Part shown: positions 541 to 7,149 of the stretch, piece by piece
Layout of the letters: every line of letters begins with the position of its first letter
Numbering within the stretch: position 1 is the stretch's first letter
DNA from: Halobacteriovorax sp. HLS
GTDB lineage: Bacteria > Bdellovibrionota > Bacteriovoracia > Bacteriovoracales > Bacteriovoracaceae
DNA length: 64,000 nt
NCBI RefSeq assembly: GCF_004006665.1
Contig: NZ_QOCL01000009.1
Location: forward strand, 248,001 to 312,000
Direction of reading: 5' to 3'
Made by a program: the position numbers and the translations under genes
The notes under the pieces: model-generated
Databases searched by the model: none
What the model saw: only the letters and a program-made list of their open reading frames with translations
Told to the model about the DNA's origin: nothing

Positions 541-572
541 TAAAAAAAGGCCTCTAATAGAGGCCTTTTTTA
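541..572. terminator. Bidirectional Rho-independent terminator
   Basis: AAGGCCTC and GAGGCCTT arms (548-555 and 560-567) with a 4-base loop are flanked by an A-run on the left and a T-run on the right, so the hairpin can terminate both the plus-strand gene ending at 520 and the minus-strand helicase gene ending at 573. Confidence 0.9.
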
Positions 573-2573
573 TTAGCTTAAACTAAGTTCAATTTGTTTG
601 AATCGTCCCTCGCCAACAGAGCTTGTTTTGAATTTCTTATCTTCACTTATGTATTGGTGAACAATTCTTCTCTCTGCTGGATTCATGCTCTTTAAAAGAA
701 CTGCTTCTTTAGAGCTGATTACTTTCTTTTTCATTTTGTCTACAAGAGCACAAATATCTTTTTCAGACTTCTTTTTATCTCTTGTATTTCTATCGTTGTA
801 TTCTTTTTGTTGTTCTTCACTAAAGCACTTAATTGAAAGTTTAACTTCATCTTTTACATAAACTTTACGTAATAAGAATTGCTTAATTAATGTTTCAAAA
901 GCTGTAAGTAGTTCTGCCTTCTTACGTAGTACAAGACCGAGGTCTTTTCCTGAAAGAGAAACTTTAAGAAGACCATCTTTAAAAGATACTTTAACAAATA
1001 GTTCTAGTTGAGCTTTCTTAATTATACTAATTAAAAAAGGAGTTAGAATCTTCTTATAGATTGGCTTTAAAGAGTGCTTGTAAGTTGTAACTCTTGGTCC
1101 AAAGAAGAAGAATTTCTTTCCACCAACAGACTCTACAGTTGTATTTAGTAGGTGGTCGTCATTAATATCAAAGTAAGTAAGGGCCGCTTTTATAGAGTCT
1201 TGCTCACTAGTGGCCTTGTTAAAGAAGAATCTTCTATCATCTTTAAAAACTTTTGAACTAAATGGGACAGTACTTGTCTTTGGTTTGATATCATTTCTAG
1301 ATTCAGACTTAGAGTCTTTATCTTTAAAGTCTTTTTTCTTAAAATCTTTTTTATCTTTAGAAAATCTCTCACTTCTTTCAGTCACCATAAGTGTCTTCGC
1401 ATCAAGGTATGGTTTTTGAGCGATATCTGTAGCAAAGTCATCATTTTCTAAATCCATCTTAGGTATTTTACTACCAATGAATTCATAAATCGGGTCTAGG
1501 TTTTCACAGTCTTCAAAAGCACAGAAACTAATTGCATGACCATCTTTTCCGGCCCTTCCTGTTCTACCAATTCTATGAACATAACTAGCGGCTTCATTTG
1601 GAAGGTCATAGTTTATAACAAGATTGACATCCTTAACATCAAGTCCACGGGCAGCAACATCAGTACAAACTAAGATAGTCACTTCTTTTGCTCTGAATTC
1701 TTCCATTAATTTTGTTCTTTTATTTTGTGCCATTCTTCCTGAAATTGGCTTGGCCTTAAAGTTCATCTTCTTTAACCACTCAGCTACTAAGTGAGTTTGA
1801 AATTGAGTGTTACAAAATACAATTGCATATGCATCTTCGTGATCTCTAAGTTGCTTAACAAGTAGTGGCATCTTTTCATTCTTATCAATCATCGCAATTT
1901 TGTGATCGATATTATCTACTAACATTGAGTCTGCATTTAATTTGATTTCTACTGGGTGAGAACCATATTTGAATGCTGTGTTTAGAACATCCATATTCGT
2001 TGTCGCCGAAACCATGATTAATTGTCTCTCTTTTGGAATTCCTTTAAGGATAAACTCGATGTCCTTTTTGAACCCCATATCAAAGAGTCTGTCTGCTTCA
2101 TCAAATACGACAGCAAAGCAATTTGAAAGATCAACTTGTTTTTGCTTAGTAAGGTCATTGAGTCTTCCTGGTGTCGCCACAAGAACATGAACACCTTTTT
2201 GAATTTCTTCAATTTGTGCTTCAATTCTCTCACCACCAATAATACATGCTGTTTTAACACCGATATCTTTACCAACTTGAGCAAAGAACTTATTCGTTTG
2301 TTGAGCAAGCTCTCTTGTTGGGCTTAGGATTACGACTTGTTGTTTTGGATTCTCTAATGCGTGCTCTTCTAAGAGTCTTTCCATAATTGGAATTGCAAAT
2401 GCCCCAGTCTTTCCTGAGCCTGTTTCAGCTAGAGCGAAGATGTCTTTCTTCTCGAGGATTGGTGGAATTGTGAGGTTCTGGATTTCTGATGCTTCTTTAA
2501 AGCCATGGTTTGTAAGTGCAGCTACTAGCTCGTCTTGTAAATTGTACTGTGTAAATTCTTTCGTTGTTTTCAT
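573..2573 (-). CDS. DEAD-box RNA helicase fused to a Jag/KhpB-like tail (Jag_N, KH, R3H)
   Basis: ATP-dependent RNA helicase of 666 residues. The core (1-380) shows motif I AETGSGKT (49-56), PTRELAQQ, TPGR, DEAD (158-161), SAT (189-191), and the C-lobe motifs TDVAARGLD and HRIGRTGRAG. A lysine/aspartate-rich linker (about 400-445) follows. The tail looks like a full KhpB/Jag protein: a Jag_N-like segment (about 455-498, 'SIKAALTYFDI...GGKKFFFFG'), a KH-II-like segment (about 510-580, 'SGKDLGLVL') in which the usual GxxG is replaced by RKKA, and an R3H domain with MNPAERRIVH (630-639, R635-x3-H639) followed by SVGEG. In other bacteria Jag is a separate RNA-binding protein near the oxaA/yidC locus. 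The start is ATG with AAGGAA upstream. A role in RNA remodelling or cold adaptation is inferred from the family. Confidence 0.93.
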   Translation of the reverse strand: MKTTKEFTQYNLQDELVAALTNHGFKEASEIQNLTIPPILEKKDIFALAETGSGKTGAFAIPIMERLLEEHALENPKQQVVILSPTRELAQQTNKFFAQVGKDIGVKTACIIGGERIEAQIEEIQKGVHVLVATPGRLNDLTKQKQVDLSNCFAVVFDEADRLFDMGFKKDIEFILKGIPKERQLIMVSATTNMDVLNTAFKYGSHPVEIKLNADSMLVDNIDHKIAMIDKNEKMPLLVKQLRDHEDAYAIVFCNTQFQTHLVAEWLKKMNFKAKPISGRMAQNKRTKLMEEFRAKEVTILVCTDVAARGLDVKDVNLVINYDLPNEAASYVHRIGRTGRAGKDGHAISFCAFEDCENLDPIYEFIGSKIPKMDLENDDFATDIAQKPYLDAKTLMVTERSERFSKDKKDFKKKDFKDKDSKSESRNDIKPKTSTVPFSSKVFKDDRRFFFNKATSEQDSIKAALTYFDINDDHLLNTTVESVGGKKFFFFGPRVTTYKHSLKPIYKKILTPFLISIIKKAQLELFVKVSFKDGLLKVSLSGKDLGLVLRKKAELLTAFETLIKQFLLRKVYVKDEVKLSIKCFSEEQQKEYNDRNTRDKKKSEKDICALVDKMKKKVISSKEAVLLKSMNPAERRIVHQYISEDKKFKTSSVGEGRFKQIELSLS

Positions 2574-2722: not shown

Positions 2723-3931
2723 TTATTCTAATAGCGCTGCAATATTAATGCGACCATTGGCCTGTATTCGTCCATTCAGGTGTTCAACAGGAGTTGAAGT
2801 GGAGATCAGCTTTTCTCTAACTTGTAGAGGAGTAAGGTTTGGATACTTTGTGAGAAGCAGCCCAATTGCACCTGCAACGTAAGGTGCAGACATAGAAGTT
2901 CCAGATAGAACCATATACTTATTCTTTGGAACAGTTGAAATGATATTTCTTCCTGGTGCGGCAACATGGACGGTTCTTGGTCCATAACAAGAAAATCCTG
3001 TCATTCTGTTTTCAGGGTTAATCGCCGCAACTGAGATAAGGTTTTCAGATTCATGATTTGCTGGATAGCGTGGGTTGATGTCGTTATTTGCGTAGCTATT
3101 TCCTGCTGCTGCAACAAAGATTACTCCAGACTGATTGGCCTGTTCTATAATCTCTTGTAAAATTTCTGATTTCTTCAGAGCACCCCAAGAGTTATTCAAA
3201 ATTTTAGCACCTCTTACAAGAGCGTAGTTAATAGCTTTGATTGCACCAGCTATGTCTCCACGGCCTTTCTTGTCCATAAATTTAACAGCTAGGATAGATA
3301 CATTTTTCATTACTCCATCAACTCCGTTTGAGTTATGAGCGGCGCCAATTATCCCGCTAACATGAGTCCCATGCTTATTCTCATCCATTGGATCTGAGTT
3401 ATTGTCTGAAAAATTGTAGCCATAGATATCATCTACAAAGCCATTACCATCATCATCAATTCCATCTTTCCCATTTTTTTCAGCAAGATTAATGAGCATA
3501 TTATCTTTTAAGTCGAAGTGTTTATAGTCCACACCTGTATCAATAACAGCTATGATTGTTTTCTTAGAGCCAAAGATTCCTTGTTCCCATACAGGCATGA
3601 TATTTAAGTCAGCCCCAACAACTCCAGGTATTGGAATCCTTCCTCCGCCGCGTCTAGGTTCATTGTTTCCAAGATTATTTAATGCCCATTGAACAGGTCT
3701 AAAGTCTTCTGCTATAGAGACATCGAAATTTTCTTCAATTATTTCGAAATCACTTTTGTCTGAAGCGGATAAATTTTCTTTAGAAATTCCAAAGTAGGGA
3801 CCAAATAGATGTTCATCATAGTTCTTTGATAGAATGAAATTTTGTGGGTTGGATACCTTAACAATATAGTCAGTCTTTGCTGTTGCAAGTTTGGCCGAAA
3901 ATATGAATAAACATAGTAGAAAAATCTTCAT
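2723..3931 (-). CDS. Secreted subtilisin-like serine protease (peptidase S8)
   Basis: Exported endopeptidase of 402 residues with a signal peptide (about 1-18, cleavage after ATA). An inhibitor-like propeptide probably spans about 20-100. The catalytic triad is visible: D131 in IAVIDTGVD, H187 in NKHGTHVSG and S346 in LSGTSMSAPYVAG, with oxyanion N278 in AAAGNS. A DDDGNGFVDD stretch (about 159-168) looks like a calcium-binding insertion. There is no membrane anchor or C-terminal sorting domain, so it is probably released to the periplasm or outside. It lies upstream of the helicase on the same strand, but a 149-base gap suggests separate transcription. In a predator it could digest prey protein; that is inference. 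Confidence 0.95.
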   Translation of the reverse strand: MKIFLLCLFIFSAKLATAKTDYIVKVSNPQNFILSKNYDEHLFGPYFGISKENLSASDKSDFEIIEENFDVSIAEDFRPVQWALNNLGNNEPRRGGGRIPIPGVVGADLNIMPVWEQGIFGSKKTIIAVIDTGVDYKHFDLKDNMLINLAEKNGKDGIDDDGNGFVDDIYGYNFSDNNSDPMDENKHGTHVSGIIGAAHNSNGVDGVMKNVSILAVKFMDKKGRGDIAGAIKAINYALVRGAKILNNSWGALKKSEILQEIIEQANQSGVIFVAAAGNSYANNDINPRYPANHESENLISVAAINPENRMTGFSCYGPRTVHVAAPGRNIISTVPKNKYMVLSGTSMSAPYVAGAIGLLLTKYPNLTPLQVREKLISTSTPVEHLNGRIQANGRINIAALLE

Positions 3932-4040: not shown

Positions 4041-5369
4041 ATGACTGAAATGCAAGATAAGTATAATATCTGGGGTACCTTCAAGTCTGTTGAACTTGAG
4101 AAGAAGTATCTCGAAGAGACTTTTGAAACTAATAGAAACTATACGTTTCTGACTTATTTCTTTTGTTGTTTATTCTTTGTCTTTGCTGGGGTCTTTGGTG
4201 ATTTTCAACGAAAATTCTACATCCTAGGAGCATATGAATTGCTTGCAGTGAGACTGTTCATTCTCGCAATCTCTATTTCTTTCTTTTTAATTTATAGAAA
4301 AGTTACTGAGCGACCTAAGCACTGGGAGCTTTGGCTTGATGTTTTAAAGATACTTTCTTCTATCAGTATTTTTCTTCTGACATGGTGGACTAAGGGGGCG
4401 AGCTTAACTTTACTTCCTGGAATTATGATGATGGTAGGAAGTTTCTATATGATCTTGCCTGGTAGAGTTCACTCCACAAATATTTGTGCCGTTTTTCTGC
4501 TTATTACTTTTGCACTTTTACAAGACCCTGTTTTAACTTATGGCGAGAAAGTTCATCGCTACATGATATTCATGCTATTTGCTATAGAAGTCCTCTTATT
4601 ATTTTTTAAATGTAAAATAGATAAGTGGGCAAGAGTAGAGTTCTATACTAAAAAAGAATTAGACACAATTAATGATACAAAAGATAAAATTCTTGCGGCC
4701 ATTGCTCACGATATACGTAACCCACTTACTATTATAATGACTAAGGCCGAAAGATGTAGAATACAGGCCCAAAAAGGTGATATGAGTGCAGTTGTTGATT
4801 ATCAAAACTCAATTGTTTCTTCTGTGAGTCGCCTTGATGGTCTTCTTGCAGATATTGTTGATTGGGCGGTTACTGAACTTCAAAATGGTCGAACTTTAAA
4901 AGAGAATAAGTGTATTGATAAAACCATTAGAGAAGCAATCGAATTTGTCTACGAACAGGCCGAAACAAAGAATATAAAGTTTGATATTGATGTTGAACCT
5001 GCAAATATTCTACATGAAACTAAGATGATGAAAACTTGCATAAGAAATGTACTTTCCAATGCAATCAAATTTTCCAATAGCTCTTCACAAATAAAAATCT
5101 CAGGAATATTAGATGCTAATCATTATAAAATTATTGTTTCAGACTCTGGTGTTGGAATGGAGGAAGATATTGTAAAAGATATTCTTGGGGGAGTAAATTC
5201 TCACACCGACTTCGGATCCGAAGGAGAAAAGGGAACAGGGCTAGGATTAAAATTAGTTAAGAATGTGATAACTAGGCATGAAGGTGAGATGGAAATAACC
5301 TCTACTCCAGGTCAAGGAACAACTTTTACTTTTCTTATTCCCTCTAAAGTTCAAAGTGCCATTGCTTAA
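4041..5369 (+). CDS. Membrane sensor histidine kinase, orphan
   Basis: Integral membrane kinase of 442 residues. Five to six hydrophobic helices fill residues 33-190 with only short loops, so the stimulus is probably sensed in the membrane. The H-box is IAHDIRNPLT with phosphoacceptor H223, the N-box is NVLSNAIKFSN, the G1 box is DSGVGM, and the G2 box is GTGLGLKLV. No receiver or output domain is fused and no response regulator gene is adjacent. The gene is divergent from the subtilase across 109 bases. The ATG at 4041 and another at 4050 are both possible starts. The signal and partner cannot be told from sequence. Confidence 0.92.
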   Translation: MTEMQDKYNIWGTFKSVELEKKYLEETFETNRNYTFLTYFFCCLFFVFAGVFGDFQRKFYILGAYELLAVRLFILAISISFFLIYRKVTERPKHWELWLDVLKILSSISIFLLTWWTKGASLTLLPGIMMMVGSFYMILPGRVHSTNICAVFLLITFALLQDPVLTYGEKVHRYMIFMLFAIEVLLLFFKCKIDKWARVEFYTKKELDTINDTKDKILAAIAHDIRNPLTIIMTKAERCRIQAQKGDMSAVVDYQNSIVSSVSRLDGLLADIVDWAVTELQNGRTLKENKCIDKTIREAIEFVYEQAETKNIKFDIDVEPANILHETKMMKTCIRNVLSNAIKFSNSSSQIKISGILDANHYKIIVSDSGVGMEEDIVKDILGGVNSHTDFGSEGEKGTGLGLKLVKNVITRHEGEMEITSTPGQGTTFTFLIPSKVQSAIA

Positions 5370-5424: not shown

Positions 5425-7149
5425 ATGTTCGAACTCAGACCTTATCAAAAAGATTCAGTTAAAGCTGTAATTAAGCACTTTCAAGTAACGAGAGACCCTG
5501 CCGTCCTTGTTCTTCCAACTGGAGCGGGAAAGAGTTTAGTTATTGCAGAGCTTGCAAAGATAGCACGAGGAAGGGTTCTTGTCCTTGCTCACGTTAAAGA
5601 GTTAGTAGAGCAAAATCACGCTAAGTATGAGAGCTATGAATTAGAAGCAGGGATTTTTTCGGCAGGGCTTAATCGTAAGGACCATGGGAATAAAGTTATT
5701 TTTGGTTCAATACAATCTATTGCTAGAGCAAGAGAGAATTTCTTTGAGGATTTTTCCTTACTTGTTATCGATGAGTGTCATCGAGTTTCTTTAGAGCAGG
5801 ACTCTCAATATCATCAAGTTATTACGAAGCTATATAAAGAGAACTCGCAACTTTGTATCTTAGGTTTAACAGCAACACCTTATCGGTTGGGGTTAGGATG
5901 GATTTATAATTTTCATTATAGAGGAATGATTAAGAGTGAAGAAGAACGTTTTTTTAAAAAATGCATTTTTGAACTACCTCTTAATTATATGATCAGACAT
6001 AAGTATCTGACACCACCTATTGTAATTGATTCTCCTGTAGCGTGTTATGATTTTTCAAGCTTGAAGAGAAACTCTGGTGATCGTGCATTTAGTGTCACTG
6101 ATATCGAAGAGGTTCTCTCAGATCAAAAAAGAGTTACACCTGGAATTATAGGGCATATCATTTCTCAAGCTAAGGAGAGAAGTGGGGTGATGATTTTCAC
6201 TTCCTCGGTTAGGCATGCCAAAGAAATACTCTCACTTCTTCCTATTGATATTTCTCAACTAGTCACTGGGGATACTCCTGAAGATGAGCGTGATGATATC
6301 ATTAAAAGATTTAAAAAAAGAGAGTTGAAATTTCTCGTTAATGTTTCTGTATTAACGACTGGCTTTGATGCTCCTCACGTAGACCTTATTGCTGTTCTAA
6401 GACCGACTGAATCAGTGAGTTTATATCAGCAAATTGTTGGACGTGGTTTGCGACTCTCACCAGGAAAAGAAGACTGCTTGGTATTGGATTACACTGGGCA
6501 AGGTTATGATCTTTTTTCACCTGAAGTCGGAAATGAAAAAACAGTTTCTGATAGTGAAGCCGTTCAAGTTCTTTGTCCAGAGTGTGGCTTTGCAAATATT
6601 TTCTGGGGTAAGGCAGATTCTGAAGGTCATGTGATTGAGCACTATGGAAGAAAGTGTCAAGGGGCCGTGGAAGATCCTCACTCTCTAGAAGTAATACCAT
6701 GTGGTTTTCTTTTTCGCTTTAAAATATGTGAAACCTGTGGAATTGAAAATGATATCTCTGCCAAGATCTGCAAGTCTTGTGATGCAACACTTGTTGACCC
6801 AGATGCGAAGTTACGTGAAGCGATGCAACTCAAAGATGCTCATGTTCTAAAGTGTGACACAATGACTTTTGAGGTTGATCAGGACAAGAAAGGTAGAGAG
6901 AGATTGGCAATTAAATACTATGATTATGATGGCGAGTCGCTAAGCGAGTACTTTTACTTAGAAAGAGATGACCAAAGAGGGGCCTTCTTTCATAATTTTG
7001 TAAGACCTCATTTAAAAAACGCTGGGCAGAAGTTCGATATTATATCTGCGCAACAAATAGTACAGATCTCTCCCATTTTTAGAAGGCCAGTATTTGTTAT
7101 TGCTAGGAAAGTTAAACATTATTGGAAAGTTAGGGAAAAAGTTTTCTAA
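5425..7149 (+). CDS. radD: RadD/YejH-type superfamily 2 DNA helicase
   Basis: ATPase/helicase of 574 residues that matches the E. coli RadD (YejH) layout along its length. Walker A is PTGAGKS (31-37) and Walker B is DECH (116-119). Further motifs are GLTATPYRLG, VLTTGFDAPHVD and QQIVGRGLRLSPG. A cysteine-rich zinc-finger region follows at about 385-455 (CPECGFAN, then CETCG, CKSCD). The end YWKVREKVF also agrees with the RadD C-terminus. In E. coli RadD aids double-strand-break repair and RecA-dependent exchange, so a DNA-repair role is likely. The gene ends with a 4-base overlap against the convergent neighbour. Confidence 0.95.
   Translation: MFELRPYQKDSVKAVIKHFQVTRDPAVLVLPTGAGKSLVIAELAKIARGRVLVLAHVKELVEQNHAKYESYELEAGIFSAGLNRKDHGNKVIFGSIQSIARARENFFEDFSLLVIDECHRVSLEQDSQYHQVITKLYKENSQLCILGLTATPYRLGLGWIYNFHYRGMIKSEEERFFKKCIFELPLNYMIRHKYLTPPIVIDSPVACYDFSSLKRNSGDRAFSVTDIEEVLSDQKRVTPGIIGHIISQAKERSGVMIFTSSVRHAKEILSLLPIDISQLVTGDTPEDERDDIIKRFKKRELKFLVNVSVLTTGFDAPHVDLIAVLRPTESVSLYQQIVGRGLRLSPGKEDCLVLDYTGQGYDLFSPEVGNEKTVSDSEAVQVLCPECGFANIFWGKADSEGHVIEHYGRKCQGAVEDPHSLEVIPCGFLFRFKICETCGIENDISAKICKSCDATLVDPDAKLREAMQLKDAHVLKCDTMTFEVDQDKKGRERLAIKYYDYDGESLSEYFYLERDDQRGAFFHNFVRPHLKNAGQKFDIISAQQIVQISPIFRRPVFVIARKVKHYWKVREKVF

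Follow-up and report, generated by a model that had tools for sequence, protein, structure and literature searches.

A DEAD-box helicase with a KhpB-type C-terminal module in Halobacteriovorax and its relatives

What does a DEAD-box helicase do with the three domains of KhpB at its C terminus? The question is raised by a gene of Halobacteriovorax sp. HLS, located in the window (the whole stretch of DNA that was analyzed, 64,000 nucleotides). The gene (573..2573, minus strand) encodes 666 residues from ATG to stop and is assigned as a DEAD-box helicase/KhpB fusion from its translation and its Pfam and NCBIfam matches.

The DEAD domain (RecA-like domain 1, residues 30–195, 1989..2486, minus strand) and the Helicase C domain (RecA-like domain 2, residues 234–342, 1548..1874, minus strand) are both matched above the Pfam cut-offs (PF00270, 1.7e-46, and PF00271, 7.4e-35). 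The motifs AETGSGKT, PTRELA, TPGR, DEAD, and SAT are intact in domain 1, as is HRIGRTGR in the Helicase C domain. In the 19 aligned sequences, the Q motif and motifs I, Ia, Ib, II (DEAD), III (SAT), and VI (HRxGRxGR) are invariant, motif VI with one variable position. By its core motifs and Pfam domains, the frame is that of a DEAD-box RNA helicase. The core scores well with the NCBIfam models of CshA, DbpA, RhlE, and RhlB and attains none of their cut-offs; the top score, with CshA (NF053631), is 361.6 bits, below the equivalog cut-off of 646. Helicases of the CshA/RhlE/DbpA type have all the core motifs in common with the fusion, but their tails are RRM-like, basic, or RG-rich.

A flexible linker rich in Lys, Asp, and Ser follows (residues 401–445, 1239..1373, minus strand), delimited by low pLDDT and alignment variability. 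In the full-length predicted model (pTM 0.44), pLDDT is below 50 at residues 401–429 and 438–440, the stretch 401–429 is disordered, and the tail has no confident placement on the core. Among the fused relatives, the linker and the insertions are charged and highly variable.

The tail contains three predicted domains, all on the minus strand. The Jag_N-like domain (residues 446–503, 1065..1238) is placed by the span of the NCBIfam Jag_EloR match, the predicted fold, and the alignment to the Jag protein 3gku. The KH-II domain (residues 504–585, 819..1064) is placed by fold prediction and structure alignment; it carries RKKA at 550–553 and Leu562 at the putative KhpA-docking position. The R3H domain (residues 609–661, 591..749) is matched by Pfam PF01424 above the cut-off (2.7e-11), and its RxxxH motif is formed by R635 and H639. 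The Jag_EloR match covers residues 456–661, i.e., model positions 8–199 of 203 (3.4e-17). The Jag_EloR scores of the aligned tails are 63–68 bits (63 for the window's tail), below the equivalog cut-off of 145, a value attained in none of 144 genomes of the phylum. Both Jag_EloR and Pfam R3H match 19 of 19 aligned tails; Pfam Jag_N matches only three of them. Against solved structures, the single tail sequence finds 3gku (9.2e-10) and Thermus KhpB 9lrg (4.1e-4), and the profile of the 19 tails finds 3gku over its length (2.4e-24) and 9lrg (4e-12).

The predicted model of the tail has a mean pLDDT of 86.9, and its order of strands and helices corresponds to three small domains. The Jag_N-like part is predicted as strand–helix–strand–strand and aligns to 3gku from model residue 3. 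The best Foldseek matches are 3gku (9.4e-15), 9lrg (4.9e-9), 9lri (1.9e-8), and HP1451 (2pt7_G, 3.1e-5), with VIA-align Z scores of 11.8 for 9lrg, 11.1 for 3gku, and 9.9 for HP1451. The overall rmsd to these structures is large (9–15 Å), which we read as domains placed differently, since single-domain rows align at ∼2–3 Å. Invariant or near-invariant columns are present in all three domains of the tail. All 19 aligned tails have R635, R636, and H639, and RxxxH is kept in 37 of 37 fused sequences and in 27 of 27 free KhpB. With Jag_N, KH-II, and R3H present in that order, the tail is, as judged from sequence profiles and predicted fold, a complete KhpB-type module.

The initial annotation had read this frame as a DEAD core, a charged linker, and Jag_N, KH-II, and R3H in order, and each part agrees with the matches above. 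The profile search of the tail, chosen beforehand as the decisive test, found both Jag_EloR and R3H. The motifs that it had placed, MNPAERRIVH (residues 630–639) and SVGEG (652–656), are in the translation; the minus strand and the start of the module at about residue 446 are additions to it. A chance R3H-like match is ruled out by the full-length Jag_EloR match and by the 3gku and fold matches. An assembly chimera or a frameshift is ruled out too, with 37 distinct fused sequences that match the profiles of both halves, tail and core.

Directly 3′ of the stop codon there is a terminator-like hairpin (543..571, minus strand) of 13 pairs and a T run; shuffled sequence yields a mean of 1.1 such sites, so that by itself it is weak support for a terminator. 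Over the 187 bases upstream of the gene, close kin are alike only along a short stretch near the start. A conserved neighborhood or operon partner was not found, the widest neighbor family occurring at five of 17 loci with mixed distances and strands. In the window, the genes upstream include a subtilisin-like protease (2723–3931, minus strand) and a second superfamily 2 helicase (5425–7149, plus strand), both named from sequence appearance only.

The fusion resembles KhpB/Jag/EloR (3gku, Thermus 9lrg/9lri, and pneumococcal EloR) in domain order, RxxxH, predicted fold, and the presence of a khpA gene. The differences are that KhpB is a separate protein there and the C-terminal third of a helicase here, and that the fusion lies outside the yidC operon, has lost GxxG, and scores below the NCBIfam equivalog cut-off. 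In eukaryotes, the helicases YTHDC2 and IGHMBP2 also have an R3H domain in the same polypeptide. They belong, however, to other helicase families (DEAH and SF1), with another domain order and without a Jag_N or KH-II of the KhpB type. In the mycobacterial RNA degradosome, as described in one report (PMC12542702), KhpB is found beside RNA-decay enzymes as a separate protein, whereas here it is fused. A literature search, mostly outside subscription journals, found no described helicase with a Jag/R3H tail.

In the genome collection, 18 loci encode full-length relatives (45%–76% identity), with 19 further matches to the core only. The tail profile matches 56 of 129 family genomes at E 0.001 or better (33 of the 73 high-quality genomes, and 30 of 48 genera). 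In 51 of those 56, the fusion is a single frame of 648–778 aa. The other five lack a single long frame: G117 (253 aa), G224 (348 aa), G225 (335 aa), G189, with the tail split over two frames, and G193, with a tail frame of 219 aa cut by the contig end. The fusion protein is dispensable to the family, since 40 of the 73 high-quality genomes have no tail match. Stand-alone Jag-like proteins with Arg/Gly/Asn-rich N termini instead of a helicase also occur in the family (L087, 4560–5594; L088, 4600–5589; L089, 5609–6615, the latter with the frame split in two).

At 1e-6, the tail profile matches 195 of 368 genomes of the phylum, 56 in the family and 139 of 239 outside it. Outside the family, the frames are of 177–276 aa among the matches listed and of up to 331 aa in another phylum search; a frame of fused size was absent from the matches listed in the phylum searches. 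A survey of 72,556 plasmid records gave three tail matches, two annotated as ordinary jag and one unannotated. The fusion thus appears restricted, within the phylum as sampled, to the window's own family.

Where, then, is the usual khpB gene? The window's genome (99.98% complete) contains one R3H gene, the fusion gene itself, so that the initial annotation's question of a free jag elsewhere has a negative answer there. In each of the 23 distinct genomes read from elsewhere in the phylum, a free KhpB gene follows yidC in the same orientation, and mnmE comes next in 22 of them (the contig ends in the remaining one). The window's genome has rnpA, yidC, mnmE, and mnmG in this order. On L146, yidC ends at 4677 and mnmE starts at 4679, and jag is absent between them. 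The fusion gene is not located behind yidC. Among 46 family genomes searched, 44 have yidC, and 30 loci were returned. In all 30, mnmE directly follows yidC, at an estimated gap of −10 to 67 bases, and a jag-type frame was not found at the junction.

This opposition, yidC–jag in all 23 genomes from outside the family against yidC–mnmE without jag in all 30 loci inside, points to a departure of KhpB from its ancestral operon. Gene order shows that, in the window's genome, KhpB has left the yidC–mnmE slot and exists only as the C-terminal module of a helicase. The ancestral free gene is, on the same comparison, gone throughout the sampled family, where the KhpB domains survive in the tail of a helicase, in a stand-alone gene at another locus, or nowhere. 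In two loci of family f7 (L140, L141), the free KhpB behind yidC has 323–331 aa, versus the usual 190 aa.

The history of the fusion can be approached through its two halves. In a quick tree of 85 helicase cores, computed without bootstraps, the 36 fused cores form one clade (SH-aLRT 98). Its sister (support 95) is the core of L096, from the one genome outside the family, of Bdellovibrio type, sampled for the nearest unfused core; that protein lacks a Jag module and has an RG-rich basic tail. The tail tree has 64 rows; G193 (L090), whose frame starts at a contig end, is counted among the unfused, and G189, in two frames, is left out. By themselves, the fused tails do not form one clade there (AU p 0.00059). 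The fused L156 and L153 have the stand-alone tails of G224/G225 and G117 as neighbors, and support for a clade of all 41 family tails is not strong (47/79).

The fused-type core is missing in eight tail-less family genomes (G059, G039, G024, G016, G088, G101, G135, G157), where the best full-model scores are 308–359 bits versus 1044 and 1102 for the two intact genes of the same search. It is missing also in G117, G224, and G225 (291–328 bits; G224 and G225 are only 62%–67% complete). The helicase and Jag halves can therefore part, since there are family genomes with a stand-alone Jag and without a fused-type core. A free KhpB of the family as the state before fusion is disfavored: the fused cores form one clade, and the unfused tails nest beside fused ones. 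There was probably one fusion, followed by splits and losses. Taken together, the core and tail trees are most simply explained by one fusion and a subsequent loss of the helicase half. Two or more later splits fit the trees better than a free KhpB before fusion, and several fusions are less likely.

In the KH-II domain, RKKA (residues 550–553) occupies the GxxG positions, a change that the initial annotation had noticed and that the alignment bears out as a loss common to the free KhpB of the phylum. Both glycines are kept in none of 37 fused sequences, in one of 23 free KhpB outside the family, and in none of four unfused within it. The fourth position is G in seven of 37 fused sequences versus 19 of 23 free outside the family. 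A loss of GxxG caused by the fusion is ruled out as stated, since 20 of the 23 free KhpB from outside the family lack the first glycine as well. Erosion of the loop was probably under way before the fusion, since the free KhpB of the phylum are largely without GxxG too. R3H may plausibly provide most of the contact with RNA.

The partner gene khpA is found in 54 of 59 family genomes. In the window's genome, it adjoins an rpsP-like gene (as read from sequence) and carries IGKQG. All 21 copies read have IGK[QH]G and then the RTI helix; ten are from genomes with the fused gene, nine from tail-less ones, one from a genome with an unfused tail, and one is the window genome's own. Pneumococcal KhpA docks on the KH-II domain of EloR, with its I61 meeting L239 of EloR at the interface (PMC6403258). 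At the equivalent of L239, all 37 fused tails have L, I, or V (Leu562 in the window's protein), and the 23 free KhpB from outside the family have F, I, Y, or L. By analogy with pneumococcus, these conserved positions would fit a KH-II domain kept for KhpA docking over RNA grip. Conservation of khpA is no proof of partnership with the fusion, because the gene is equally kept where the fused gene is absent (nine of nine family genomes read without a tail match). In genus g5, the KhpB tail is matched in none of the 14 listed genomes and khpA is kept in G039, the one read: KhpA without KhpB.

For the function, our tentative preference, held with somewhat less than even confidence, is a DEAD-box helicase that has absorbed the sole KhpB, with a tail that selects RNAs of the KhpA/KhpB type and a core that remodels them. 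The R3H face would bind RNA. The KH-II domain, its RNA grip through GxxG gone, would retain pairing with KhpA through the third helix, and the docked KhpA would supply an intact GxxG. Tail and docked KhpA together would choose the targets (mRNA, sRNA, and tRNA types as in other bacteria), and the tethered core would use ATP to unwind or remodel them, so that they are turned over or paired with sRNAs. A single polypeptide would stand in for the partnership of a helicase and an RNA chaperone; the fusion itself suggests that both proteins work on the same RNAs. A role in RNA decay is possible, given an RNase E/G gene in the window's genome. In the mycobacterial RNA degradosome set, a DEAD-box helicase is present. 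KhpA and KhpB are reported in that degradosome (PMC12542702, citing Plocinski 2019), and two papers describe KhpB in other bacteria as binding mRNA, tRNA, and sRNA and pairing with KhpA (PMC10117718, PMC12542702). It is conceivable, if doubtful, that the fusion is natural evidence for a cooperation of KhpA/KhpB chaperones and DEAD-box helicases in bacteria generally, the chaperone module picking RNAs, perhaps sRNA–mRNA pairs, and the helicase remodeling them for decay or pairing.

DbpA is targeted to the ribosome or rRNA by its C-terminal RNA-binding domain. The tail of the fusion could be such a targeting module, in a helicase for ribosome assembly or cold adaptation with KhpB ancestry incidental. 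The scores of the core with the CshA, DbpA, RhlE, and RhlB models, below cut-offs as they are, go in that direction, and so does the resemblance of the KH-II model to the KH domains of ribosomal protein S3, though this is the general KH-II fold. In Grad-seq, moreover, KhpA and KhpB tail into the 30S fractions (PMC10117718). The fusion retains, however, the full three-domain order of KhpB, which exceeds the needs of a simple rRNA anchor, and rRNA-specific features were not found; we consider ribosome targeting somewhat unlikely.

Basic or RGG tails raise RNA affinity in many DEAD-box proteins, and the tail might mainly act in this way, holding RNA near the core with the KH-II domain as a relic. 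The nearest unfused core, in the one Bdellovibrio-type genome sampled (L096), bears an RG-rich basic tail instead, and the loss of GxxG and the charged, variable linker and insertions are also compatible with such a role. But a relic would drift, and invariant or near-invariant residues occur in all three domains of the tail, with the KH docking helix hydrophobic in 37 of 37 fused sequences. We regard general affinity as unlikely. HP1451, a Jag-like protein, inhibits the ATPase VirB11, and its place among the structural neighbors of the tail (Foldseek 3.1e-5, Z 9.9) brings up a brake or switch on the ATPase of the core. VirB11 is not a helicase, however, and a long disordered linker with the tail not confidently placed on the core (pTM 0.44) speaks against a brake, which we consider very improbable.

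What is new is the departure of KhpB from the yidC–mnmE slot, the restriction to one family within the phylum as sampled, the single clade of fused helicase cores, and the phylum-wide erosion of GxxG; the parts of the fusion are known, and the mechanism is one that we infer. For the way in which KhpA and KhpB alter the fate of the RNAs that they bind, the fusion points to a concrete helicase partner. It also prompts the question whether, in other bacteria, KhpB and a DEAD-box helicase come together on RNA as separate proteins. In this family, which comprises relatives of bacterial predators, what KhpB does with RNA is moreover uncoupled from its connection with YidC.

In the mnmE gene of the window's genome (L146, G000:C2:225000-236000, ∼5790–5930), there are in-frame near-palindromic repeats, TGGTCCTATGGGGGCA, TGGTTCTATAGAACCA, and TGGTCCTATAGAACCA. 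These repeats are close to TTCCACGTGGAA sites, near dnaA, which we take to be parS-like, and are perhaps a second family of origin-linked binding sites.
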